A stretch of 64,000 nt of DNA from Spirochaetales bacterium. Lineage in GTDB: Bacteria; Spirochaetota; Spirochaetia; JABEVK01. Location of the stretch: the NCBI GenBank assembly GCA_947478845.1, contig CANJXC010000005.1:1-64000 (forward strand), written 5' to 3'. Made by a program: the position numbers and the translations under genes. Shown here in pieces: positions 12,352 through 58,572 of the stretch. Position 1 is the first letter of the stretch. Each line of letters begins with the position of its first letter. The notes beneath the pieces were generated by a model. It worked only from the letters and a program-made list of their open reading frames with translations, was not told the origin of the DNA and made no database searches.

Positions 12352-15201
12352 ATGCGTAAACTGAGGACCTTTGTCCACTCAGTAAAAGCATTTTTCTCGG
12401 GAACATTGGCCTTGTTGGCTTTGGCCACCTGCGACGCGGGGCTCGGCGCGAAGGTCGATGTCACCGCGCCCATCCTCACAGTTATCACGCCCGAGAAGGC
12501 AGGTGGGTATTTTAAGGGTGCGCTCAGCTTAACGGGCACGGCAACCGACGACCGCGGGTTGGTTTCCCTCAAAGTGAGTTGGCAGGGCGCGTCGGGCACC
12601 CGCGAACGCGAGGCAATCTCCTCTCTCAATGGCACCTCGTGGTCGCTCGAGCTCACTTCGGGCACCGACGGAGATCTTCCTGAAGGGACGAACAACGTCA
12701 CGGTCGAGGTAGCCGATGGGTCGGGAAAGACCGCCAGCCAGACCATGCTGGTCTACATCGACAACAAGCCAGCAACCGTGCTGGTAACCTACCCGCTTAG
12801 CCATGGGAACATGGGTTCCACCAACGATCAGTTCAGACCTGGGGTGACCAGCGGCCTCGACGTCAAGGGCGAGGTTTACGATGAGTCCCCGATTACTTCG
12901 GTGGTTGTCTCGGTGCTAAAGGCCGACGGCTCGAGCCTCATCCCTACCGAACCGAAGAACGCTTTGTTCACCAAAACGGCCGATGGAACCAACACCTTTT
13001 CCGTGCGGTTTCCGCTCAAGACGAATCCGGAGGCCTCGGCCTATCTGAACGATCAGCAGACCTACCTGTATCAGGTGACGGCCACAGATTTAGCGGGCAA
13101 CCAGAATAGCGTCTACTACCATAGCCAAGACGTTTTCACCTTGCTGCCGCCCAACACGCCCTTTCCCACGGTCTCGGAAATCGGAAAACTCAACACAGTG
13201 GGACTACCAGGCTCGGTCTCGAGTCCGTCGAGAGTCCAGTACAACGATTTGTCTTCTAAGCGCTTAGGTCGTTTAGGCTCGGCATCTCAGTGGGGCGACT
13301 TCAAGTATGTTCAGAAGGCCGTCCCCACTATCGCTTTCTCAAACCTTGACAAAACGGCGCCACAGAACCAAAACCTACTCGGGGTTGGGTCAGTTGTCAC
13401 CGGAAACATCATACCCCCCGTCAATTCCGGAGCCATCGACCTCACCTCGGTTCATATCGAGGTTTACCGCGGCGTGGTTGTTCCCACCTCCAGCGATACC
13501 CCTGTTCTCAGTCTGAATGCCTCGAAGTTCGGCAAGTGGCCCTCACCCGGCCCATCGGTGGCCGGAACCACCGATAAGAACGAGTTGGTCGCTTTGGGCG
13601 ACTCCTACGGCTTCACCATCGACCTGCGCTCGGTCGACCCTGCCGATTTCAGTCCGGGAGCGGTTCTGCCGCCAGACCCTTACTTCGTAGTGGTTTCGGC
13701 CAAGGCACAAGGGTCGGACGTCAACAGCGATTTGGCAGCGTTCTTTGTCGACAGCTCCGCTCCTAACCTGTACGAAACCAACGTCGGGCTCGGCTCGGTC
13801 TTCAAGACCGCAGGCTTCAGCTTGGGTGGACAGGCCAGCACGGCTCCTCCGACGGCTCTGGCAACCGTGACGGTAAAAGAAAACGATAGCGCTCTCCCCG
13901 CCAAAACCTTTACCTTCCCCAGTGCTTCCCAAAGTGCGGGCTGGACCATCCCCGGGCTTCCTGTAGGCGGGGCTGATGGAACCTACAACTACGAAATTGT
14001 GCTGACAACTTCCTCGGGCAAAACCTCACCGCCAGTCTACCGCAATGTGACCCTCGATACGACCCCTCCTTCGCTGAGCGTCAACACCCTCTCGCCATTG
14101 TTTGGAAGCTCGGTCGTCAGTTCCACCCTGAGCGCGAGTTTCATTGCCTCTGACTCCAACGGAGTCCAGTCGCTCCGTTGGTGGGTGGTGCCCAACCCCA
14201 GTCGACTTTCCGCCACGCCCTCGGCTCCCCAGCCGAATTGGGCCGACACGGGTCTAGCCACCTACGTCGGCAGCCTTACCGCAGCTCCCTACCTTGGAAC
14301 TTTGAGCACAACCTCACTGGCCCAGGGGCACTATACCCTTTGGCTCGCGGCTCACGACCGGGCCGGAAACGAACAATGGTCCTCGAGTCCGCTGGTCGTC
14401 GATCAGTTGCCTCCCGCGCTGGCAGTCTCGAACCCCGATACCACTTTGGTCGGCTCAAGCCCGATCATGAACAGCGCCCAGTTGGCAGCGTTTAATTCCA
14501 CGGGTTTCACTGGGACGATTTCCGACACTTCAGAAGCGAGCAGTCTGCCTTCCCCCGCGCTCAAAGTGACCTACACCAAGGACGGCGGAACGCCGGTTGG
14601 GCCCACTCCACTTTCTCCCAATTCTGCAGGCGCCTGGTCTTGGAAACCTTCTCTCGTGGACGGAGTCTATTCGTTCGTTTTTACCGCCACTGACTTTGCC
14701 GGACGCACGACGAGCGTCACCCGTTCGTTTTCAGTAGACACCAGTGGCCCGGTGGTCACAGTCAATGTGCCAACCACCGGCAGCTGGACCAACCTCTCAA
14801 GTTATCAGGCCATCGGCTTTGCCAACGATGGTTCCGGCTCTGGTACTTCGGCAGTTTACCTAAGAATCGACGACGCCACAGTGGACCACTCTTCCGATGT
14901 CACTAACTCGGGTTGGACCCTCGCCAACGGCACGGTGAGCTGGAATGCCTCGGTTGGCTTGGGGGCCGAAGGCGCGAAGAAACTCTGGGTCAAAGCCGAG
15001 GATGCCGCGGGAAATGTGACTCTTCAGCTAACAACTGTGGCTGGAAACACCGTGCCGGCGGTGAACTTCGGCCGTGATGTGACCTCTCCCATCTTGGGAA
15101 CCGAGTTCGACGAAACCGCCATTGGAGCCGCCACGGTTAGCAGAAAAGATCCGTTTGTGTTTGGTGGCGCGGGAAAAAGCAAAGCCTCCGATGCGCTTTA
15201 G
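12352..15201 (+). CDS. Giant Ig-repeat surface lipoprotein, N-terminal part (ends at an in-frame amber codon)
   Basis: The frame opens with a lipoprotein signal: M-R-K, a hydrophobic stretch, then L-A-L-A-T-C as lipobox, with Cys near residue 25. Several divergent bacterial Ig-like domains follow, with the usual D-x-T-A-P opening strands and D-x-A-G-N closing strands. The 949-residue product ends at TAG 15199-15201 in the middle of a repeat, where sister repeats read D-A-L-S-G. The same frame then stays open to 24789. It is therefore either a truncated product of a broken gene or the first part of a readthrough protein. The start at 12352 is supported by the lipoprotein signal and promoter; the longer frame from 12148 has no signal peptide. 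Likely a cell-surface adhesin-like protein; the ligand is unknown. Confidence 0.85.
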   Translation: MRKLRTFVHSVKAFFSGTLALLALATCDAGLGAKVDVTAPILTVITPEKAGGYFKGALSLTGTATDDRGLVSLKVSWQGASGTREREAISSLNGTSWSLELTSGTDGDLPEGTNNVTVEVADGSGKTASQTMLVYIDNKPATVLVTYPLSHGNMGSTNDQFRPGVTSGLDVKGEVYDESPITSVVVSVLKADGSSLIPTEPKNALFTKTADGTNTFSVRFPLKTNPEASAYLNDQQTYLYQVTATDLAGNQNSVYYHSQDVFTLLPPNTPFPTVSEIGKLNTVGLPGSVSSPSRVQYNDLSSKRLGRLGSASQWGDFKYVQKAVPTIAFSNLDKTAPQNQNLLGVGSVVTGNIIPPVNSGAIDLTSVHIEVYRGVVVPTSSDTPVLSLNASKFGKWPSPGPSVAGTTDKNELVALGDSYGFTIDLRSVDPADFSPGAVLPPDPYFVVVSAKAQGSDVNSDLAAFFVDSSAPNLYETNVGLGSVFKTAGFSLGGQASTAPPTALATVTVKENDSALPAKTFTFPSASQSAGWTIPGLPVGGADGTYNYEIVLTTSSGKTSPPVYRNVTLDTTPPSLSVNTLSPLFGSSVVSSTLSASFIASDSNGVQSLRWWVVPNPSRLSATPSAPQPNWADTGLATYVGSLTAAPYLGTLSTTSLAQGHYTLWLAAHDRAGNEQWSSSPLVVDQLPPALAVSNPDTTLVGSSPIMNSAQLAAFNSTGFTGTISDTSEASSLPSPALKVTYTKDGGTPVGPTPLSPNSAGAWSWKPSLVDGVYSFVFTATDFAGRTTSVTRSFSVDTSGPVVTVNVPTTGSWTNLSSYQAIGFANDGSGSGTSAVYLRIDDATVDHSSDVTNSGWTLANGTVSWNASVGLGAEGAKKLWVKAEDAAGNVTLQLTTVAGNTVPAVNFGRDVTSPILGTEFDETAIGAATVSRKDPFVFGGAGKSKASDAL

Positions 15202-18180
15202 GGAGTTCGCTCGCTCACCGTGACAGACAACGGCGCCAACCAAGCCTCCATTGCGGTGACGAGTGGAGAGTGGATCTACGACATATCGCCGCTACCCTCC
15301 GACGGGTATCATGCCTATGTCTTTACTCTGACAGACAATGCCAATAATCAAAGCACCATGACCCGCGCGGTCGTCGTGGACACGACTCCGGCTGTGGCGG
15401 CGGTTACCGTTCCAGCTGAAGGCTTGAAAACCAACCAGACAACTGTCAACCTTTTGGGATCCTCTAACGATGGTGCCGGCTCCGGGGTAGCCGAGGTGTG
15501 GTACCGGCTGGATGCTGCCGGTGTCGACCATTCCGGTGACTCTTATAACTTTAGCTCAGGAAACCTATCAGGCTGGACCCGGGCCACGGGGACCACCAGT
15601 TGGTCTGCCACCGAAAGTGGCCTCACCGACGGCATGAAGAAACTGTGGGTGAAGACTCTCGACAACGCTGGCAACGTCACCACCGGCCCAGCTTCGGCGT
15701 TGGCCTCCCCCACGTTCACGGTCGATACCACGGCACCGGTGTTGGAAGAAACCGCGGTCGTATCGACAAGCTATCGAAACGGTCTCTGGACCTTTAGCGG
15801 GACAGCGACCGATGCCCTCAGCGGCATCGGTAGTCTCAAGGTCACAGACAACGGGTCTGTTGCCCAGACGGTGACCGTAAGCACCGGTCAGTGGAGTTTT
15901 ACACCGGCGGTACTTCCCTCCGATGGTGTGCATACCTATGTGTTCACTTTGTTCGACCTTGCGGGTAATCAGACGACTAAGACCCGGACGGTCATTGTAG
16001 ACAAGACCCCGGCAGACGCTTCCGTGGCCTCGCCGGCAGCAGGCCTTAAGACGACAGCCACAAGCCTGATTCTTTCCGGTTCCGCTAACGACGGCGCTGG
16101 CTCGGGAGTCGCAGAGGTGTGGTACCGTCTCGACGCATCGGGAATTGACCACTCCAGCGACGCCTATAACTTCAGCTCGGGGGCCATCGCGGGTTGGACC
16201 AAGGCTACGGGCACGGCTACTTGGACCGGTGAGTTGACGGGCCTGCCTGAAGGCAACAAGCGGCTTTGGGTGAAGACGCTGGACAATGCTGGAAACGTAA
16301 CAACCTCTGCAGCCTGCCTTGCCCAAGCCGTGTCGCTCATCATCGACCTCACACCACCGAGCCTGGGAGAATCGACCGTTGGAACCGGCTCGGTGTACCG
16401 GCCCGCGGCGTTCAACTTTGGCGGATTCGGGAGTGCTTCGAATGCCTCGGACTCGCTTAGTGGCCTTGGTGCCCTGACTGTCACGGACAACGGGGCCTCG
16501 ATGGCGACCATTGCTGTCGACGCCTCTGGGGATTGGTCTTACAGCGTCAGCGGACTGGCCGACGGTACTCATACTTTCTTGTTTACTCTGGTCGATCAGG
16601 CCGGAAACCAAACAACCCTCGGCCGCCAGGTCGTGGTCGACACCATTCCTGCTTCCTATTCCATTAATGTGCCCCTACCGGGTGCCCTCCAGAAGATCAA
16701 CACGCTGACGATTGCAGGCTCGGCCAACGATGGCTCGGGCTCAGGCGTGACCGAGCTCTGGTACAAGGTCGACGCGAGCACCAATGACCATAGCTCGGAT
16801 GCTTACTCTAGCTGGACTAAGGCGACCGGTACCACCACTTGGTCGGCCAGCTTAACAGGGCTAACCGAAGGCACCAAAAAGCTGTGGGTGAAAAGCATCG
16901 ACGGCGCCGGCAACCAGACCACGGCTTCCACCGCGCTGTCCATGGCAGTGAACTTCACCGTCGACCTGACACCTCCGTCACTCAGCGAGGCTGCCATCGG
17001 GGCCGCAGTGGTGTCGAAACGGGCAGCCTACTCGTTTGGTGGGGCAGGATCCTTGAGTTCTGCAACCGATGCACTAAGCGGTATCGATACCCTCACGGTG
17101 AGCGACAACGGCGGAGCCTTGGCCACCATAGCGGTGGATGGGGCGGGAAAATGGAGCTATTCCCCGAGCGTTCCAGCGGATGGAAATCACACTTATTTGT
17201 TTACTTTAAAGGATTTAGCTGGCAATCAGACTACCCTGACCCGGACTGTAATTGTCGACACGCTTGCCGCTGAGGTCGCGATAAACTCCCCGCTCGCGAA
17301 TGCTCAGATCAATGCGACAACCGTGAACCTTGCAGGGTCTTCGAACGACGGGTCAGGTTCGGGCGTGGCCGAGGTTTGGTATACCGTTGACGCTGCCGCC
17401 AACGACCACAGCGCCGACTTATATTCCAGCTGGACCATGGCCCAAGGCACCAACACTTGGAGCGCTTCCCTCTCGGGGCTCAACGATGGTGATCGCAAGC
17501 TTTGGGTAAAAGTAGTCGACGTCGCCGGGAACGTTTCGGCTGCCAGAACTGTGGCTTTTACGGTCGACACAACTCCCCCGGTGCTGGGGGAAACTGCGGT
17601 CGGAGCGACTACAGTTTACAAGAACGGGCTGTGGACCTTTGGCGGGGCCGGCGCCCTCAGCGTCGCGACCGACAATCTGAGCGGCGTAAGCACGCTCACG
17701 GTCACCGATAACGGTGCCAACACCCAAACCGTCGCGGTGAACGGGGGCTCTTGGTCTTATCGTCCTCCAGTGTTGCCCTCGGAAGGTTCTCACACCTTCT
17801 TGTTCACCCTGAGCGATCAGGCTGGAAATCAGACCAATTTGACTCGGACGGTGGTGGTGGATACGGTGGCGCCGGTTCCCATGGTCGGTTACCCCTCCTC
17901 AGGCTGGATCAGCTCGGCCACACCCACGCTCATGGGCTCGGCGAGCGACGGTTCGGGTTCTGGAGTGAAGGAAGTTTGGTACCTCATTGATGTGGCTACC
18001 AACGACCACAGCTCAGACTCCTACACCACCTGGACCAAGGTGACCGGTACCACCTCCTGGACCAAGACCACGGCCATCCTCCCTGAAGGGCAGCTCAAGT
18101 TGTGGCTTAAGACCGTGGACAACGTCGGTAACTTCACTTCGGCGGCCGGTGCGCTGGCCACGCTGCAGACCTTCGGCGTG
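14742..18180 (+). repeat. Tandem composite Ig-like repeats in the giant lipoprotein
   Basis: Two alternating modules of roughly 90-100 residues are repeated. Type B has N-D-G-S-G-S-G-V-x-E-V-W-Y, D-H-S-x-D and K-K-L-W-V-K. Type A has D-A-L-S-G, L-T-V-T-D-N-G, W-S-Y and T-F-L-F-T-L-x-D-x-A-G-N-Q-T. I count six B and five A modules in B-A order, and the DNA is recognisably similar between copies. The amber codon lies in the first A module. Such arrays can expand or contract by recombination. Confidence 0.85.
15199..15201 (+). other. In-frame amber codon splitting the giant gene
   Basis: The frame before (12352) and after (15202-24789) is the same. The aligned codon in the other A modules encodes serine in D-A-L-S-G or D-S/N-L-S-G. 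One base change, TCG to TAG, accounts for it. TAG ends other genes in the window (for example M16 at 3046-3048), so it is not generally reassigned. Confidence 0.8.
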
Positions 18181-21100
18181 GATACAGTCGCCCCGAGTTT
18201 GGGCATCGACACTCTCACGGCCTACAACTCCTCCCCCACGATTTCCGGCACGGTGGCCGACTCCGGTTCCGGAGTCACCTCGCTCCAGTACAAACTTGAC
18301 ACCGGAAGCTACACCACCGTCTCGGTGGCTGCCAGTTGGTCGTTTGCGATACCAACAGCAAGCTTCGCGGCGCTCACCGAGGGCCCCCACACCGTAACGG
18401 TGGCTGCCTACGATGGTGCGGGTAACCTGACGACGCACTTGTCGTCTTTCAACAAAGACTCCACGGCTCCTACCCTTTCCCACACCACCATTTCTGCCAG
18501 CGGTGGTACGGTGGTGCAAGACAGTCTCCCTATCCTGCGGGGAACCCTCCAAGATGCCAGCGGCCTCGCCAACACGGCAACCTTCACGGTGGAAAACTAC
18601 AGCTACGCGAAAAATCTCTGGACGAACATCCCCGAGTTTATCGCGGCTTCGCTGTCGGTAACCGGCAACCCTACGACCTTTAATTGGAGCGTCGACCTTA
18701 GTTCTTACCCGGACGGCCGCTACCGGATCAGCTTCACGGCCCCCGACATCGTCCCAGGGGCCCCCAACACCCTGAACACCAGCGCAGTCACGTTCTTCGT
18801 CAGCCGAAGCTCGCCTGCCGCAGAAGTGACCACGCCTTCCATGGGTAGCTTCCAGTCCGGCGCTTTTCCGATGACTGGAACAGTCGCCGATTTTAATGCG
18901 GTGACAGGCGTGGTGGCCAAGATCGGGAGCGGAAGCGTCGACTTCTCGTCGGGAACTACCCCAGCCTACGCGGCGGCCGACATTTCCGGGCTGGATCTCA
19001 CCACCGATGTTTTTACCACTTTCCAGCACCACGGACTTAATGCCGGCGACACGGTGTACTTCTCGGGCGCGCTACTGCCTGCAGTTTCCGGGGCAACCCT
19101 GTCGGCGGCCACCGCCTGCTACGTCATTTCGGCCAACCTTTCGGCCACCACTTTCAGCGTCTCGCTCACCAGTGGCGGAAGTAAAGCAGATTTCAACGGA
19201 AACGGCTCGCAGATGCTGGTGGGTGGCCCAACGATGAAGTTCATTCCCGTTCAGGCAGTCGCTGCGTCGGGCACCATGCTCACCTCCCCTGGCCACGGTT
19301 TGACGGCAGGAAACGTCGTTTACTTCCAAGGCGCTTCGGTTTCGCCGGCCACGGCCTACTACGTTCTCGCCTCCGGTTTGACTGCTTCGACCTTCACGGT
19401 AGGAAACAGCGCCGGGGGGTCGGCCGTCACCATCGCCGGCTCCGGTTTGACCTTCACGTGTTCCAACAAATCGGTGAAGTGGCTGTTGCCAGCCCTCTCG
19501 GTTGGTGGGTTCTCCGAAGGTCCGCTCACGGCTTTCGTCCGTGTGAGCAACAGCAGTACGGGAAAAGTCAGCCAGACAAGTCGGGACTTTGTCCTTGATT
19601 CCACAGCTCCTTCGATTTCGATCGTGTCGCCTGGCCAAGGAACCCGCAGTGTCGGCAGTCTCACCCTGATTGGAACCACAACCGACCCGGGCTCAGTACC
19701 TGCGGGGGTCATCTCGACCATCCAGTATCAGGTGGGCAAGAACTTCAACCTGAGCAGCGAGGGTGGTTGGCTCACGAGCAACGTCACGGGCGGGAGCTAC
19801 AGCTGGAACATCACGTTAGGAAACATGTCGGGATACGCCAATGCCACCTGGGCAACAGAAAGCGACAGCAACGGCACACCCGCGAGCGGGACTAACCTCT
19901 GGAAGCTCCCCATTGTGTTCCAGAGCGTGGATAAAGGCGGCAACGTGGGCCAACTGACCAGTTACTACCTCATTCTTGATCCCAACGGAAACGTGCCCAT
20001 CGTCACCGTCACCCAACCGGCCAGCGCCTTGACCTTTGGGGGCCAGGTAAGGGTGACAGGAACAGCCGTCCAGCCTACATGGATCCACGATGTCGAGGTT
20101 GCCATCGACCCCACCGGCGGCAACAACTTCCCGGCCAGTCCCGTGGCTGTCACCGTTGCGGGCTCCACGCTTACCTCTGCAGGGCACCCGTTCACCAACG
20201 GCATGAGGCTGTATGTATCGGGAACCAGCGCACCGCAGATCGGGGGCGTCCCAGTCTCACCGAGCACTGGCTACTGGGTCGTCAACCGAACAGCCAACAC
20301 ATTGCAGATATCGGAGACTAGCGGGGGAACCCCAGTGACTTTCAGCGGCGCAGGTTCTGGCGTTACGGCCACGGTTTGGGGTGCTGCCACCCTAATCACC
20401 ACGGGAAACAACGTCATTTGGTACTCAGACCTCAATTTCAGCGGTGCCTACCCCCAAAGTGGGGCCATCAACCAGACCCTCAGCATTCAGGCTCGCGCCT
20501 GGAACTCCCCAACGGCAGGGGGCGTAAGGGGTACCATCTCAGGAACGCTGACCAACCCCTTGACCATGACCTTCAACTCCACTTTCCCCAAAATCCAAGA
20601 CTTGATGGTCAACGGTGCCACCTACTACTCCCAAATGACCACGCGCGGCACATTTTCGTTGACGGCTTCGGTGAGTTCGTCGAAGGGAATCAGCCGCATC
20701 GACGTTGTCGAGAGCAGTCCTCTTAGTGGAGCCACCAGTGTTTACGACACCGATACCAGCTTTGGCACCACGAGTGCGGCCAAGGGGTCGTTCTGGTCTT
20801 CGGTGGTGGTGCCCCCGGCTACCAAGACTTCCGATTCTTTTGTCAACGGAAACTCGGTCAAGGTCATGATTGTGGCTACCGGCTCCACACCCTCGCTCTG
20901 GACCGCTGCGGGGGCCCCCACGACCACCCCGGGAACCGTGTTCACCCCTAACAACCTCAGCTTGTCGGTGGCGGCTTCAGGAGGTTCGTTCCTAGAATCC
21001 GACGCGAGTGGGAACTTCAACTACACGGCGACGCTTTCGATCGACTCCTCTCAAATGTACAGCAGCACCACCGGTCAGTACGCCATCGACCTGCGAGCCT

Positions 21101-24100
21101 CCGACCTCGGATCGCCAGCCAAGGTGTCGACAACCAGCGTCGTGGTGAACGAAGACAACTACTTTCCCACTTCGTCCATCCTGTCATCTTCGACGCTGGT
21201 AGGCTCGTCGTTCAAAGTTCAGGGGACCGCCACGGACACCGGATCCGGGTCGGGAATTATCGCGGGGCTAAAAAAGATCGTGGTTTACATGGTGCGCTCG
21301 GGTGCGGTCTTGAACATCAAGTCTGGGAGCGGTCAGGTTGCTCCCGGAACAATAACAGCCAAGGACATGTCGAACGCGGGAGCCGTCGGCTCGGTGCCCT
21401 ACCCGGACACCACGCTGTACTCGAATTATTTCGCCAGCATCGACAACCGCACCGAAAACGGCAGCTCTGATGTGAATGGTGACGGGTTCCAAGAAAGCCT
21501 GCTCACCAACGGCAACAGCCTCGATTGGTGGGTCCAACTCAACACCGCACAGCTTGCCGACGGTCCTGTCGAAGTTCATTATGTGGTTTGGGACAATGCC
21601 GGCAACGCCACGCACTATGTTCAAGCGGGCTTTGTGAGCAACAATCCACCCACCATTACCGGCGTGCAACTGGGGACAGACCTCAATGGGGACCAAAGCA
21701 TAGCCACCGCAGAGGTCAGCCCCTCTACCTCGAATGTCAACACTTCGTTCACTGTGCGCAACAACCGGTTGTCAGTGAAGCCGACGGTGGCCTACAACGG
21801 TAGCAACAGTGCCCTTTCCTACAAACTCGAATACTTCAATGGGACCAGTTGGGTCGTGTACGCCGATTCTTTCGGGTCTACTCCGTCGTTTGGAGGAACG
21901 ACGAACGGTGTGACTCTCAGCAATCTGGACCCTGTCAGTCGGCTAGGCGAAAGTGTCACGCTCAACTGGGCAGCTAATGGATTTGCCACGATTCCCGACG
22001 CGGCCCTCAACACCGCTGTCTTCCGGGTCACCGTGACCGATGGGACCCTTCAATCGGCTGCGATTACCTTCAATTTGGGGATACAGAACAACGACAACGT
22101 GGCCCCCACGGTTGATTTGGCACCTATGGGCCAACGTTACAGCGCTCCTTTGGATGCCAACAACGGCTACGTTAACTTCGACACGACCAAGACTCTGGCC
22201 GCCAGCACCTACAGCGAGAACGTCAAGGTTTCAGACGGTACCGACGGGTATACCTCAGGAACCAAGGAAGGCCACGTGGAATACGCCACTCAGAGTCCGT
22301 TCAATCCGCTCAGCGTGACGATGTCGGTGCCCTCCACCGGTAGTTTCACCAACAGCGGAGCTAACAGCCTGGCCTCCGGCATGGTGGTGTACTTGGCTTG
22401 GGCCACTGCGCCCTCATCAGCACCCAATGGCGCTGGTCCGTACTATGTCCTGCCCACGCCCTCGGCAACGGCTTTCCAGCTTTCTGCCACCAAGGGCGGC
22501 GCACCCGCGTCGTTCGGTTCGGCAGGTAGCGGGCTGACCGTGGCCAGCCCCGACATTTCGGGCAAGGTGATTTTCCGTGGGAAGTTCGCCGATAACCAGC
22601 GCCTCAGCAACTTTCAAGTGACCATCTCAGGTTTCAACGGAGGCAACGCGTTCACCGTGGCAACTTGGTCGGCCACGGCCAACAGCGGCGCCGGGGGGCT
22701 AGTACCGTCTACCGGAACCGGCTGGACCTTTGCCCTCGACCCGACCACAGAATCTTTGAGCGCCGCCAACGGCCATGTCGCAAACTGGGCCTTCACGTGG
22801 GACTCGAGCCAAGTGACGGGAGTCGCGGCCAAGAATGTGTCGCTGGTGTTCAAAGTTACCGACTTCGGAGGAGGCACAGCCTCCAGTGGAACCACAGTGG
22901 ACGTAGTTCCCTACATCTCGAAACTGGTCACCGGGCTTTCTTTGGCCTATAGGAATGATCCTTCGGTGTTCAACCGGACGCTCCGGGGCAATTACCCGGT
23001 CGCCGAGGGAGGCACAGTGGAGATTCAGGGCTTCAACCTCAATGGAACAGCAAACACCGGCGTGTACGTGGGTGCCACTCAGGTGACCTCGACCTACCTC
23101 GCCTTGGGCTCAGCCCTCCCCACTCCGGCCAATACCGATCTGGTTGCTACCCTTAACTCCGCTCTGGGCCTGACTTCAGGAAGCCTCAAAGTGACGGTTA
23201 ATTCGGTGGACTCGCTCAACAACAGCAACTCCAACCTCAGCACTTGGAATCAGGAACCGAACAACACCAACAACAAAGCCATCCCTTCGAATCCCGCCTT
23301 GACAGCCACCAACCTCACCGACGACCGAGCGATCGACGTGTGGAAGTTCGCCAGCCCGACAGGCCACACCGCCTCAACCTTCGGCCGGATCTGCTACCCG
23401 CAGTTTAAGACCATCAAGACTGGCGGCACTACTACCGATCTGGGCGTAGCCTACGCCGATGCCGATTCCTACTTCCGCATGGTGAAGTTCCCTGTGGCTA
23501 CAGGCGCCATCTCAAACTTCGCCACCTCGATCTTTGAGTTCGGCTACACCCGGTTCTATATGCCGACCTTTGATGCCGACACTAATGGGCAGTTTTACGG
23601 CATGGCCGTCGACCAAGACCATTCGGTTGACGATTGGAATGGAACAACCCACGTAAGCTTCTTCGCCATTGCTCCCGGAACCGCGGTGGGACCAGCGACC
23701 AGCGGTCAGGCGGCCAATGCCGTTCACACCGCGGGAGGCTGGGCTGGTGGCGCTTACGACTGGGGAACCAATAAGCGGGGTCTGGAACACAATTTTAACG
23801 TGAACTTCGCCGCACCAGCCACCTCGACGTATTTTAACAGCCAGCGGACTCAAAACCCCGACGTGTTCACCACAGGCCCGGCGGGAAATGCCGTCAACTA
23901 CCTGGTGTACTACGACCAGACTACCGACCAGCTGAAGTTCCGGTATATGAAGATCACGGGAACTGAGGCTGCGGGAAGCAACCCCGGCCCCTGGACCACA
24001 TTCGATGGCGCGGTGATGCGGGATGCCTTCACAACCGATGCCAACGGTTCCCAACCCAATTTCCAGGTCTTTGGGGCGGCCGGCAGCGGTGGAACCTCTG

Positions 24101-24789
24101 GCCCGTATGCCACTGTGGGTGCCTGGTTTGATACTTCCCTTTCGCGGGAAGTAGCCTTTATCGCCTGGTACGACCAAAAAAACTCGGTGCTTCGCTACTC
24201 GTACAACGACAATCCCTCGCTTTCGGCGCAAAGTGGCCAGTGGGCAAGAAACATGGTAACGCTTGACCCGTCGTTTGCCGGACAATTCGTCAAGCTGGCG
24301 GTAGATGGCTTGGGCGGAGTTCATCTAGCTTACTACTCCAACGCCGGGGCCGATCTCAAATACGCCTACATCAAGGACTACAAGAACCCCCTGACAACGA
24401 GCACCATCGTCACCGTCGATTCGTTCCTCTCGGTGGGCACCAACACGTCGATCAGCGTCGTAACCAACGGCACCACCGTGACCCCTTACATCACCTATTA
24501 TCTGCCGTCGCTGGACCAGACCATCTACTCCCTCCGCTATGCCACGCTGAAGGGCGGTTTCAATCAGAGCAGCTATGTGGCCAATTCCACCATCAAGAAC
24601 GCCGTGGACGAAACCTCCGACGTCTTCAACAGCGTGGCCACAACGAACTGGGAAGTCAGTTCGATCCCGACAGCCAACATCCCGAAGAATTACCAGGTCG
24701 GTTCGGCTCAGGTGGGGACTGTCACCGCGCCGACCTTCTACACCGGTTACGTGACCTCGGCTAACCTCGAATACGCGCGATTGAAATGA
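15220..24789 (+). CDS. Giant Ig-repeat surface protein, C-terminal part (continuation after the amber codon)
   Basis: From GTG 15220 (first possible start after the TAG) the frame runs 3,189 residues with no further stop. Layout: the composite Ig repeats continue to about 18180. Further Ig-like domains follow, with four copies of a phage-tail-type module (H-G-L-x-x-G-D-x-V-Y-F-x-G ... Y-Y-V ... F-x-x-S-x-x-x-G-G) at about 19018, 19276, 20167 and 22342. A C-terminal region from about 23300 of roughly 490 residues has many W/Y/F and repeated Y-A-D-A-D/Y-Y-D-Q-type strands, possibly a beta-propeller. It has no signal peptide of its own, so alone it would stay in the cytoplasm. No decay (no extra stops or frameshifts over 9.6 kb) suggests the amber is recent, suppressed or a sequencing error. 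The downstream lipoprotein gene overlaps its stop (ATGA). Confidence 0.85.
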   Translation: MTDNGANQASIAVTSGEWIYDISPLPSDGYHAYVFTLTDNANNQSTMTRAVVVDTTPAVAAVTVPAEGLKTNQTTVNLLGSSNDGAGSGVAEVWYRLDAAGVDHSGDSYNFSSGNLSGWTRATGTTSWSATESGLTDGMKKLWVKTLDNAGNVTTGPASALASPTFTVDTTAPVLEETAVVSTSYRNGLWTFSGTATDALSGIGSLKVTDNGSVAQTVTVSTGQWSFTPAVLPSDGVHTYVFTLFDLAGNQTTKTRTVIVDKTPADASVASPAAGLKTTATSLILSGSANDGAGSGVAEVWYRLDASGIDHSSDAYNFSSGAIAGWTKATGTATWTGELTGLPEGNKRLWVKTLDNAGNVTTSAACLAQAVSLIIDLTPPSLGESTVGTGSVYRPAAFNFGGFGSASNASDSLSGLGALTVTDNGASMATIAVDASGDWSYSVSGLADGTHTFLFTLVDQAGNQTTLGRQVVVDTIPASYSINVPLPGALQKINTLTIAGSANDGSGSGVTELWYKVDASTNDHSSDAYSSWTKATGTTTWSASLTGLTEGTKKLWVKSIDGAGNQTTASTALSMAVNFTVDLTPPSLSEAAIGAAVVSKRAAYSFGGAGSLSSATDALSGIDTLTVSDNGGALATIAVDGAGKWSYSPSVPADGNHTYLFTLKDLAGNQTTLTRTVIVDTLAAEVAINSPLANAQINATTVNLAGSSNDGSGSGVAEVWYTVDAAANDHSADLYSSWTMAQGTNTWSASLSGLNDGDRKLWVKVVDVAGNVSAARTVAFTVDTTPPVLGETAVGATTVYKNGLWTFGGAGALSVATDNLSGVSTLTVTDNGANTQTVAVNGGSWSYRPPVLPSEGSHTFLFTLSDQAGNQTNLTRTVVVDTVAPVPMVGYPSSGWISSATPTLMGSASDGSGSGVKEVWYLIDVATNDHSSDSYTTWTKVTGTTSWTKTTAILPEGQLKLWLKTVDNVGNFTSAAGALATLQTFGVDTVAPSLGIDTLTAYNSSPTISGTVADSGSGVTSLQYKLDTGSYTTVSVAASWSFAIPTASFAALTEGPHTVTVAAYDGAGNLTTHLSSFNKDSTAPTLSHTTISASGGTVVQDSLPILRGTLQDASGLANTATFTVENYSYAKNLWTNIPEFIAASLSVTGNPTTFNWSVDLSSYPDGRYRISFTAPDIVPGAPNTLNTSAVTFFVSRSSPAAEVTTPSMGSFQSGAFPMTGTVADFNAVTGVVAKIGSGSVDFSSGTTPAYAAADISGLDLTTDVFTTFQHHGLNAGDTVYFSGALLPAVSGATLSAATACYVISANLSATTFSVSLTSGGSKADFNGNGSQMLVGGPTMKFIPVQAVAASGTMLTSPGHGLTAGNVVYFQGASVSPATAYYVLASGLTASTFTVGNSAGGSAVTIAGSGLTFTCSNKSVKWLLPALSVGGFSEGPLTAFVRVSNSSTGKVSQTSRDFVLDSTAPSISIVSPGQGTRSVGSLTLIGTTTDPGSVPAGVISTIQYQVGKNFNLSSEGGWLTSNVTGGSYSWNITLGNMSGYANATWATESDSNGTPASGTNLWKLPIVFQSVDKGGNVGQLTSYYLILDPNGNVPIVTVTQPASALTFGGQVRVTGTAVQPTWIHDVEVAIDPTGGNNFPASPVAVTVAGSTLTSAGHPFTNGMRLYVSGTSAPQIGGVPVSPSTGYWVVNRTANTLQISETSGGTPVTFSGAGSGVTATVWGAATLITTGNNVIWYSDLNFSGAYPQSGAINQTLSIQARAWNSPTAGGVRGTISGTLTNPLTMTFNSTFPKIQDLMVNGATYYSQMTTRGTFSLTASVSSSKGISRIDVVESSPLSGATSVYDTDTSFGTTSAAKGSFWSSVVVPPATKTSDSFVNGNSVKVMIVATGSTPSLWTAAGAPTTTPGTVFTPNNLSLSVAASGGSFLESDASGNFNYTATLSIDSSQMYSSTTGQYAIDLRASDLGSPAKVSTTSVVVNEDNYFPTSSILSSSTLVGSSFKVQGTATDTGSGSGIIAGLKKIVVYMVRSGAVLNIKSGSGQVAPGTITAKDMSNAGAVGSVPYPDTTLYSNYFASIDNRTENGSSDVNGDGFQESLLTNGNSLDWWVQLNTAQLADGPVEVHYVVWDNAGNATHYVQAGFVSNNPPTITGVQLGTDLNGDQSIATAEVSPSTSNVNTSFTVRNNRLSVKPTVAYNGSNSALSYKLEYFNGTSWVVYADSFGSTPSFGGTTNGVTLSNLDPVSRLGESVTLNWAANGFATIPDAALNTAVFRVTVTDGTLQSAAITFNLGIQNNDNVAPTVDLAPMGQRYSAPLDANNGYVNFDTTKTLAASTYSENVKVSDGTDGYTSGTKEGHVEYATQSPFNPLSVTMSVPSTGSFTNSGANSLASGMVVYLAWATAPSSAPNGAGPYYVLPTPSATAFQLSATKGGAPASFGSAGSGLTVASPDISGKVIFRGKFADNQRLSNFQVTISGFNGGNAFTVATWSATANSGAGGLVPSTGTGWTFALDPTTESLSAANGHVANWAFTWDSSQVTGVAAKNVSLVFKVTDFGGGTASSGTTVDVVPYISKLVTGLSLAYRNDPSVFNRTLRGNYPVAEGGTVEIQGFNLNGTANTGVYVGATQVTSTYLALGSALPTPANTDLVATLNSALGLTSGSLKVTVNSVDSLNNSNSNLSTWNQEPNNTNNKAIPSNPALTATNLTDDRAIDVWKFASPTGHTASTFGRICYPQFKTIKTGGTTTDLGVAYADADSYFRMVKFPVATGAISNFATSIFEFGYTRFYMPTFDADTNGQFYGMAVDQDHSVDDWNGTTHVSFFAIAPGTAVGPATSGQAANAVHTAGGWAGGAYDWGTNKRGLEHNFNVNFAAPATSTYFNSQRTQNPDVFTTGPAGNAVNYLVYYDQTTDQLKFRYMKITGTEAAGSNPGPWTTFDGAVMRDAFTTDANGSQPNFQVFGAAGSGGTSGPYATVGAWFDTSLSREVAFIAWYDQKNSVLRYSYNDNPSLSAQSGQWARNMVTLDPSFAGQFVKLAVDGLGGVHLAYYSNAGADLKYAYIKDYKNPLTTSTIVTVDSFLSVGTNTSISVVTNGTTVTPYITYYLPSLDQTIYSLRYATLKGGFNQSSYVANSTIKNAVDETSDVFNSVATTNWEVSSIPTANIPKNYQVGSAQVGTVTAPTFYTGYVTSANLEYARLK
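19018..19458 (+). repeat. Tandem phage-tail-type modules inside the giant protein
   Basis: Two adjacent copies (about 19018-19225 and 19276-19458) share H-G-L-x-A-G-x-V-V-Y-F, an A-x-x-Y-Y-V core and T-F-x-V. Related copies lie at about 20167-20380 and 22342-22548. This pattern is familiar from tail-fibre and virion structural proteins. Confidence 0.55.
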
Positions 24790-25775
24790 GACGCATGCTT
24801 TGGGGGTTAGCGGCGCTACTGGCCAGTTGTTCGGGCCAGCAGGTGGTGGTTTACCTCGCCCCTGAGGCGCAGGGCCTTGCAGCGGTTCTGCCAGCAGTGT
24901 TGCCTTCTGCTGAAAAAGGAACTGACCTGCATTTTGAGGTGATTCAAGGCACCTGGCCGGCAGGTCGCAAGGACGCGTTGGTAATCTCTGCCTTTTCAGC
25001 GCTTCCGGGTGAAGTCGATACGAGTGCCAGCCAGCCAGTTTTGCCTCCCCGGGGCTATCAAGCGGTTCCGGGCCTCAGCGTCGGCGACGGACTTCCCTTG
25101 TTCTTTGACGTTGTTGGAGTAACAGCCTTCGCTACCGATCTGCCTAGCGAGGTCGGTGACCAACTGAAGGCTTGGAATGCGCCGGCAAAAGGCTGGCCCA
25201 AGGTGAGTGCCCTTTCCATCGCCGGAGCAGAAACAGACCTCAGGTTGGCGTCCTGGCTCGGTGCCGGTTCCGAGCCAGAGGCCGACTTCAAGGCACAGCA
25301 AACAAAGTTCGAGGCCTGGCTGAAGAGCCTCCGCTGGGTGCCCGATTCATGGAGCTATCGCCGCGCCGACGCTGCTATGTCCTACCAAGGAGGTCAGGGC
25401 AAGGCGTTTGTTGAAACCTTTCGGGACTATTTTCTCAGTAACCCGCCCGGTTTCCGACGTTTTTTTCCGCTGGTAGTTGTAAAACCCGGTTCAACGGCTG
25501 TGGTTGGTTCCTCGCTCACGCTTCGTGCCTTCGGGAGCAATAGAGCCGAGGCTGCTGCGCTTGCGCTGGCGGCAGTTCTCGTCGACCCCGACTTTCAAAG
25601 GCAGTTCAGCCAGAAGTCCGGTTGGATGCCGGCCAACCTCGCAGCCCCAGTTCTCGACTCGGCCAGCAGCTTCCTGCGCAAAACGCTTTTCTCCTGTGGA
25701 CTGATCAGTGTGTCAACCGTAGCCTACGCTACCGAGCAGGAGCTTTCCCGCCTCGTCCTTACAACCCCCCGATAA
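24786..25775 (+). CDS. Lipoprotein resembling an ABC solute-binding protein
   Basis: This 329-residue product opens M-R-R-M-L-W-G-L-A-A-L-L-A-S-C, a lipobox with Cys15. The C-terminal third (P-L-V-V-V-K-P-G-S-T ... E-A-A-A-L-A-L-A-A-V-L-V-D-P-D-F-Q-R-Q-F) resembles the closing region of family-1 sugar-binding proteins, where spare residues of the domain precede the last helices. No permease or ATPase gene is nearby. Its ATG overlaps the stop of the giant protein gene (ATGA), so its translation is probably coupled to that gene. That suggests the two products work together at the cell surface. Function otherwise unknown. Confidence 0.7.
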   Translation: MRRMLWGLAALLASCSGQQVVVYLAPEAQGLAAVLPAVLPSAEKGTDLHFEVIQGTWPAGRKDALVISAFSALPGEVDTSASQPVLPPRGYQAVPGLSVGDGLPLFFDVVGVTAFATDLPSEVGDQLKAWNAPAKGWPKVSALSIAGAETDLRLASWLGAGSEPEADFKAQQTKFEAWLKSLRWVPDSWSYRRADAAMSYQGGQGKAFVETFRDYFLSNPPGFRRFFPLVVVKPGSTAVVGSSLTLRAFGSNRAEAAALALAAVLVDPDFQRQFSQKSGWMPANLAAPVLDSASSFLRKTLFSCGLISVSTVAYATEQELSRLVLTTPR

Positions 25776-57838: not shown

Positions 57839-57840
57839 GA

Positions 57841-58006
57841 AACCAGACTTTCCGAACAAAGCAGCCATTGATGGTTAACCGCGCCACCTTCGCTGGTTGG
57901 GCGTCGTCTGCTCCTTGCCGCGGTGCTCACGTGCACATCGCACGCTCCGCGCCGGGCTTCCTCACAGACTAGCCCAGCCACCGAATCTGTCGTGGAAAGG
58001 CCGGTT
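57841..58006. repeat. MITE-like 166-bp element, copy 1
   Basis: This 166-bp unit is repeated at 58025-58190 with a period of 184 bp. I count three mismatches by eye. Ends read AACCAGACTTTCC and GGAAAGGCCGGTT, imperfect inverted repeats. It begins two bases after the LUD stop. It contains no credible gene. Confidence 0.8.
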
Positions 58007-58024
58007 TCATTGGGCCAGCTGATA

Positions 58025-58190
58025 AACCGGACTTTCCGAACAAAGCAGCCATTGATGGTTAACCGCGCCACCTTCGCTGGTTGGGCGTCGTCTGCTCCTT
58101 GCCGCGGTGCTCACGTGCACATCGCACGCTCCGCGCCGGGCTTCCTCACAGACTAGCCCAGCCACCGCATCTGTCGTGGAAAGTCCGGTT
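58025..58190. repeat. MITE-like 166-bp element, copy 2, with 13-bp terminal inverted repeats
   Basis: The ends AACCGGACTTTCC and GGAAAGTCCGGTT are a perfect 13-bp inverted pair. Its last two bases are part of the arfB stop codon (TAA, 58191-58189 on the complement). An 18-bp spacer separates it from copy 1. Size and ends fit a non-autonomous transposable element or an intergenic structured repeat; no target-site duplication is clear. Confidence 0.8.
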
Positions 58191-58572
58191 ACTCGTCGGT
58201 GACACGCCGGTTTTGTTTGTGGGTGGAAGACACCTTTTTTGCTGTGAGACGACGTTCTTGGGACGCCCGAGTCGGCTTAGTTTTGCGTCTGGGCTTATCG
58301 CGGTGGAGGGCCTTAGCCAGTCTGTCGAGCATCCGCTCCACGGCCAATTCTCGATTCGTGAACTGGCTTCTTTCGTCTTGCACCACAACCATCATCCGCA
58401 CAGGTAATCGAGAATGCTCCTGCTCCGACAAGCCTGGCAGGTCAACTGTGTTGACGGCCAATTGGACCCTTGAAGATGTTTTGTTGACATGCTGACCGCC
58501 AGGCCCCGAAGCCCGTGAGAACATCAGCTCGCCATGCGCTTCCAGATAAGCCCGAATGACGACGGCGTCCAT
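58189..58572 (-). CDS. arfB: Alternative ribosome-rescue factor ArfB (YaeJ)
   Basis: This 127-residue protein has S-G-P-G-G-Q-H-V-N-K (GGQ motif near residues 25-27) and a basic C-terminal tail (R-R-K-T-K-P-T-R, K-K-V-S-S-T-H-K-Q-N-R-R) that enters the mRNA channel. It hydrolyses peptidyl-tRNA on stalled ribosomes. The size is close to E. coli ArfB. The stop codon is formed at the end of the MITE-like copy 2, so the insertion may have changed the last residues. Ten bp after the thioredoxin gene. Confidence 0.95.
   Translation of the reverse strand: MDAVVIRAYLEAHGELMFSRASGPGGQHVNKTSSRVQLAVNTVDLPGLSEQEHSRLPVRMMVVVQDERSQFTNRELAVERMLDRLAKALHRDKPRRKTKPTRASQERRLTAKKVSSTHKQNRRVTDE

Follow-up and report, generated by a model that had tools for sequence, protein, structure and literature searches.

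The closest described counterparts of the gene analysed here are the Lig proteins of Leptospira. LigC, of the LigA/LigB/LigC family, is a large lipoprotein that combines a series of bacterial Ig-like domains with a large extension at the C-terminus, and ligC is a pseudogene through a single premature stop codon in one or more strains and intact in others (PMC13081718, PMC3012076, PMC7821625). The gene described here lies in a window of 64,000 nucleotides (the whole stretch of DNA that was analysed) from a Spirochaetales bacterium. Like ligC it specifies a large spirochaete Ig-like lipoprotein with a C-terminal extension and is interrupted by a single stop. The domains themselves are different: the Lig proteins carry Big_2 domains, with Big_5 in the extension, whereas the interrupted gene encodes Big_13 and Big_3 domains and an unrelated C-terminal domain. 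Big_2 repeats (PF02368), as carried by Lig, were absent among the Pfam matches of the giant protein. A domain match in the repeat array (91.8 bits against a domain cut-off of 40 bits) is shared with the OmpL47-type repeat proteins (NCBIfam NF047446 and NF047441), but the score for the OmpL47 equivalog NF047441 was 65.8 against a cut-off of 250 bits, and size and architecture differ.

A single in-frame stop codon in a giant lipoprotein gene

The frame runs on the forward strand from ATG 12352 over 949 codons to a TAG at 15199-15201 and is open again, without shift, from 15202 over 3,195 codons to the TGA at 24787-24789, which would give 949 + 1 + 3,195 = 4,145 residues were the TAG read (Table 1). 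The TAG is the sole in-frame stop between 12352 and the final TGA, and the frame is nowhere shifted. Both parts look like a gene in codon usage (scores of 0.17 and 0.22 on the 5' and 3' side of the TAG, respectively), and GC3 does not change at the stop (0.68 and 0.71). Given the single stop, the unshifted frame and the coding signal on both sides, the interruption is real as sequence, and the initial sequence-only reading, a giant lipoprotein frame of 4,145 residues from 12352 to 24789 with one amber codon, was confirmed by the reading of the ORFs. In a scan of coding potential (best of six frames) over a 464-kb sample of stretches from the same genome, containing 371 gene ends, this was the sole clear in-frame split of one coding region; the other candidates turned out to be ordinary gene junctions or shadow frames.

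Table 1. Features of the interrupted gene and its surroundings (positions in the window)
Feature	Position	Strand	Basis or remark
5' part of giant gene, 949-codon ORF ending at TAG	12352..15201	+	
Lipoprotein signal peptide through presumed lipidated Cys27 (LATC), then GLG..VD	12352..12432	+	sequence, relatives
Conserved N-terminal domain, residues ~27-264, common to most relatives	12430..13143	+	
Ig-like module hit by stop	15079..15387	+	repeat alignment, Big_13 matches
Single in-frame TAG	15199..15201	+	
3' part of giant gene, 3,195 codons then TGA	15202..24789	+	
Span of four aligned serine codons	15820..17682	+	repeat alignment
Conserved C-terminal domain, 747 aa: N-terminal beta domains and propeller-like region (predicted)	22546..24786	+	
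Small lipoprotein, weak similarity to solute-binding proteins	24786..25775	+	overlaps giant-gene TGA (ATGA)
ArfB-like release-factor gene	58195-58530	-	

The N-terminus carries a lipoprotein signal with LATC followed by a DAGLG..VD motif (LATCDAGLGAKVD), so lipidation would take place at Cys27, and the giant lipoprotein is presumably located at the surface. The repeat array that follows matched Big_13, Big_3_2 and Big_3_3, and the TAG interrupts one module of ~103 residues after ~40 of them, in the middle of the module and at no boundary. The C-terminal domain matched no Pfam family, and its profile gave no match to the PDB sequences. Its predicted structure (mean pLDDT 80, pTM 0.84) was found by Foldseek to be most similar to six-bladed fucose lectins and sialidase-type propellers (e.g. 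AFL 4d52 and BT3686 5muk, with E-values of ~1e-6 to 4e-7), at an identity of only ~7-12% and a query-normalised TM-score of at most 0.30. We therefore describe the domain as predicted to contain a propeller-like region, a likeness at the level of the fold only that does not in itself point to sugar binding or to an enzyme.

A family of giant spirochaete lipoproteins

Judged by its sequence, the interrupted gene belongs to a family of giant envelope lipoproteins that is widespread among spirochaetes, the Cys..GLG..VD family, which we defined in the present analysis. The gene has both of the defining traits, a lipoprotein signal with Cys followed by GLG..VD and the shared C-terminal domain. Usually the two ends of a family member lie in one frame; this state, which is not a criterion for homology, is broken in the interrupted copy by the TAG at 15199-15201. 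With the C-terminal protein as lone query the named genomes gave no hit, and an alignment-based scan did find the loci: the C-terminal profile identified 79 of them, nearly all in spirochaetes by title (Treponema, Brucepastera, Marispirochaeta and other Spirochaetales). The loci from Treponema and other Spirochaetales (L114-L192) resemble the interrupted gene in their N-terminal signature, Ig-like middle part and C-terminal domain, encode uncharacterised proteins of ~1,500-4,200 aa and, unlike the interrupted gene, show no lone in-frame stop where they were read.

The continuity of the frame was counted for 47 loci in named genomes that have the 5' frame boundary inside the contig. In 43 of these the frame is continuous back to the lipoprotein start (41 by pattern, and L117 and L123 by eye), two are broken by one frameshift each (L122 and L164) and one by several (L150), and one (L135; 1/47) lies at a contig end and was assigned to neither class. 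A lone in-frame stop was found in none of the 47. Continuous genes are also present in G004 (two in tandem), G006, G013, G029, G036, G049, G052 and G056. Since the relatives encode both parts as one frame, the uninterrupted protein represents the conserved condition, and this split occurs in the present genome alone.

The three broken loci are located in Brucepastera parasyntrophica (L122, 2175-12271), a rumen MAG (L164, 1284-12688) and Treponema vincentii (L150, 7135-12256), and by record accession the genome of each also holds an intact paralogue (L190, L139 and L192, respectively). The near identity of the N-termini of L122 and L190, and likewise of L150 and L192, is suggestive of recombination between the paralogues. 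In the present genome we found no second copy of the gene. Two congeneric species, both with fragmentary assemblies, gave no match to either gene end, on which basis the giant gene appears to be accessory and sometimes lost.

Age of the interruption

The intactness of the downstream part limits how long the stop can have been there. Of the 28,755 possible single changes downstream of the TAG, 853 would give a stop, such that one further stop is expected at ~0.35-0.4% neutral divergence and, with 95% probability, by ~1.1%. The absence of further stops thus bounds neutral decay to a divergence of ~1% or less, and the bound falls to 0.2-0.4% if indels are counted, at an assumed indel rate of 5-10% of substitutions. 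Moreover, all 17 C-terminal residues that are invariant in 38 relatives are kept downstream of the TAG (17/17). The earlier view that this is not an old pseudogene therefore holds. The exclusion of an old pseudogene is supported by the sequence, and the stop-count bound does not separate a recent pseudogene, an error and a functional gene.

The codon from which the TAG arose was approached through the repeats. It had been proposed that the four other A-type repeats have a serine where the TAG aligns, and that a one-base change from TCG to TAG had occurred. The alignment agrees with the first statement in all four copies, and the second finds no backing there: the serine codons are AGC (15820), AGT (16459), AGC (17077) and AGC (17680), none of which is a single step from TAG. 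As serine codons of the AGC/AGT kind, the repeat copies are silent on the codon formerly at 15199, and the giant gene makes frequent use of both serine codon boxes. A single-base origin is nevertheless not disfavoured, because the ancestral codon of the interrupted copy itself may have differed from those of the other repeats.

Possible decoding of the TAG

We found no sign of a dedicated system for reading the TAG. None of the 43 tRNA genes has a CUA anticodon (the assembly is incomplete in rRNA regions), so a search for the suppressor suggested at the outset came back empty, and the best PylS score was 31 against a cut-off of 178 bits, like in most control genomes. TAG is an ordinary terminator that ends 67 of 278 long ORFs, and RF1 is intact, with its PVT and GGQ motifs kept. 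RF2 is present as well; its frame (prfB, L104) has no obvious start and shows a VFD context, which we take to be, perhaps, the common programmed frameshift of prfB. The RNA 3' of the TAG has no unusual structure (z = -1.0).

Another option was leaky termination, in which low-level decoding of the TAG by a near-cognate tRNA gives small amounts of the full-length giant protein in addition to the short lipoprotein. The frame beyond the TAG is intact and conserved, the genome has a near-cognate tRNA-Gln(CUG), the +4 base is a G, which was the leakiest in E. coli reporters (PMC11126739), and prokaryotic in-frame stops that evolve under purifying selection have been reported (PMC7918605). However, the gene has T bases just upstream of the TAG, which were unfavourable in the same reporter study (PMC11126739), and a mutation of very recent date would leave the frame just as intact. 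A suppressor tRNA is lacking, RF1 looks normal and the downstream RNA structure is unremarkable. The position of the stop, mid-module, makes it unsuited to a designed two-product scheme, and conservation of a stop in place among orthologues, as read-through would predict, was seen in none of the 47 loci of relatives. Read-through is conceivable in principle and has no positive evidence in its favour, and we consider leaky termination improbable. Still less probable is its strongest form, in which the TAG is fixed and selected in the only copy of the gene and gives mostly the 949-residue lipoprotein and a few percent of the 4,145-residue giant. Read-through, if shown, would provide a rare example in bacteria of a giant envelope protein metered by a stop codon.

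Repeats and possible internal initiation

A reversible switch, in which recombination or gene conversion between repeats toggles the full-length gene, had been put forward as phase variation. Homologous modules do occur in tandem, and the best DNA block extends over 126 nt at ~70% identity, but the gene contains no exact repeat of at least 16 nt, and exact matches to the stop region are at most 11 nt long. There is also no simple-sequence tract at the TAG and no second gene copy that could act as donor. Lacking suitable repeats, such a switch is very unlikely.

The two parts could also be genes in their own right, with the second one translated from a start immediately behind the TAG. A GTG is found at 15220, 14 nt after AGGGAG, but at this distance AGGGAG would not make a good ribosome site, a protein starting there would begin mid-module and have no signal peptide, no promoter-like site was seen, and the relatives have one gene. 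We give this arrangement hardly any credence.

Genomic context and assembly quality

The TGA of the giant gene overlaps the start codon of a small lipoprotein gene (ATGA), which is therefore probably co-translated with it. The same two genes are also paired in G003, which belongs to another genus of the same taxonomic family. As the pairing recurs there despite different flanking genes, the two may travel as a unit. Elsewhere in the window, at 57840-58190 and just before the ArfB-like release-factor gene, there is a 184-bp direct tandem repeat of which the copies are 98% identical.

The assembly (G000) is a draft of 22 contigs, probably metagenomic, in which the 16S gene, tRNA-Ile(GAU), tRNA-Ala(UGC) and tRNA-Ser(CGA) were not found; the missing 16S gene, tRNA-Ile(GAU) and tRNA-Ala(UGC) fit rRNA operons lost from a short-read assembly. 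This draft state is relevant to the explanation that the TAG stems from a mistake in the consensus or the assembly, or from a minority strain, and that the true gene is uninterrupted. Apart from the TAG the gene has no flaw and occurs as a single copy, nearly all members of the family have an unbroken frame, and resequencing of 73 interrupted genes of Mycobacterium smegmatis showed 28 to be sequence errors (PMC1852416). The latter errors were over- and undercalls, miscalls being invisible to the search used in that study (PMC1852416), and a substitution is the rarer kind of assembly error. Confusion in assembly is unlikely as well, the giant gene having no long exact repeats, and the lack of a second such split in the 464-kb sample indicates that the assembly is not error-rich. 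An error in the sequence is, all in all, an unlikely explanation, though the strongest of the alternatives.

Probable origin and meaning of the interruption

We consider it probable that a nonsense mutation gave rise to the TAG very recently, in a giant lipoprotein gene that is accessory and dispensable, a case close to that of ligC in Leptospira. The lone stop in an otherwise flawless stretch of 12.4 kb and the preserved invariant positions (17/17) are in line with this, as is the existence of disrupted members elsewhere (L122, L150 and L164). On the other hand, each of these three broken relatives has an intact paralogue whereas the present genome has a single copy, and their lesions are frameshifts and not lone stops. 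Of the options raised initially, a fresh mutation and a sequencing error both stand, and a suppressor and repeat switching have found no support.

With a nonsense mutation of this kind, arisen very recently inside an Ig module, translation would most likely end at 15199 and the product, a lipoprotein of 949 residues, would have its last module broken and lack the C-terminal domain. The coupled lipoprotein gene downstream might be expressed less through polarity. The function of the giant protein would then probably be lost, and the accessory gene would be at the first step of decay.

The finding of the stop codon is in itself of little weight: large Ig-like lipoproteins with a single nonsense lesion are known from spirochaetes, and with ligC already described one such stop is fairly ordinary. 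The more useful by-product is the family to which the gene belongs, a broad family of giant spirochaete lipoproteins with a C-terminal domain that has no Pfam model and is predicted to contain a beta-propeller.
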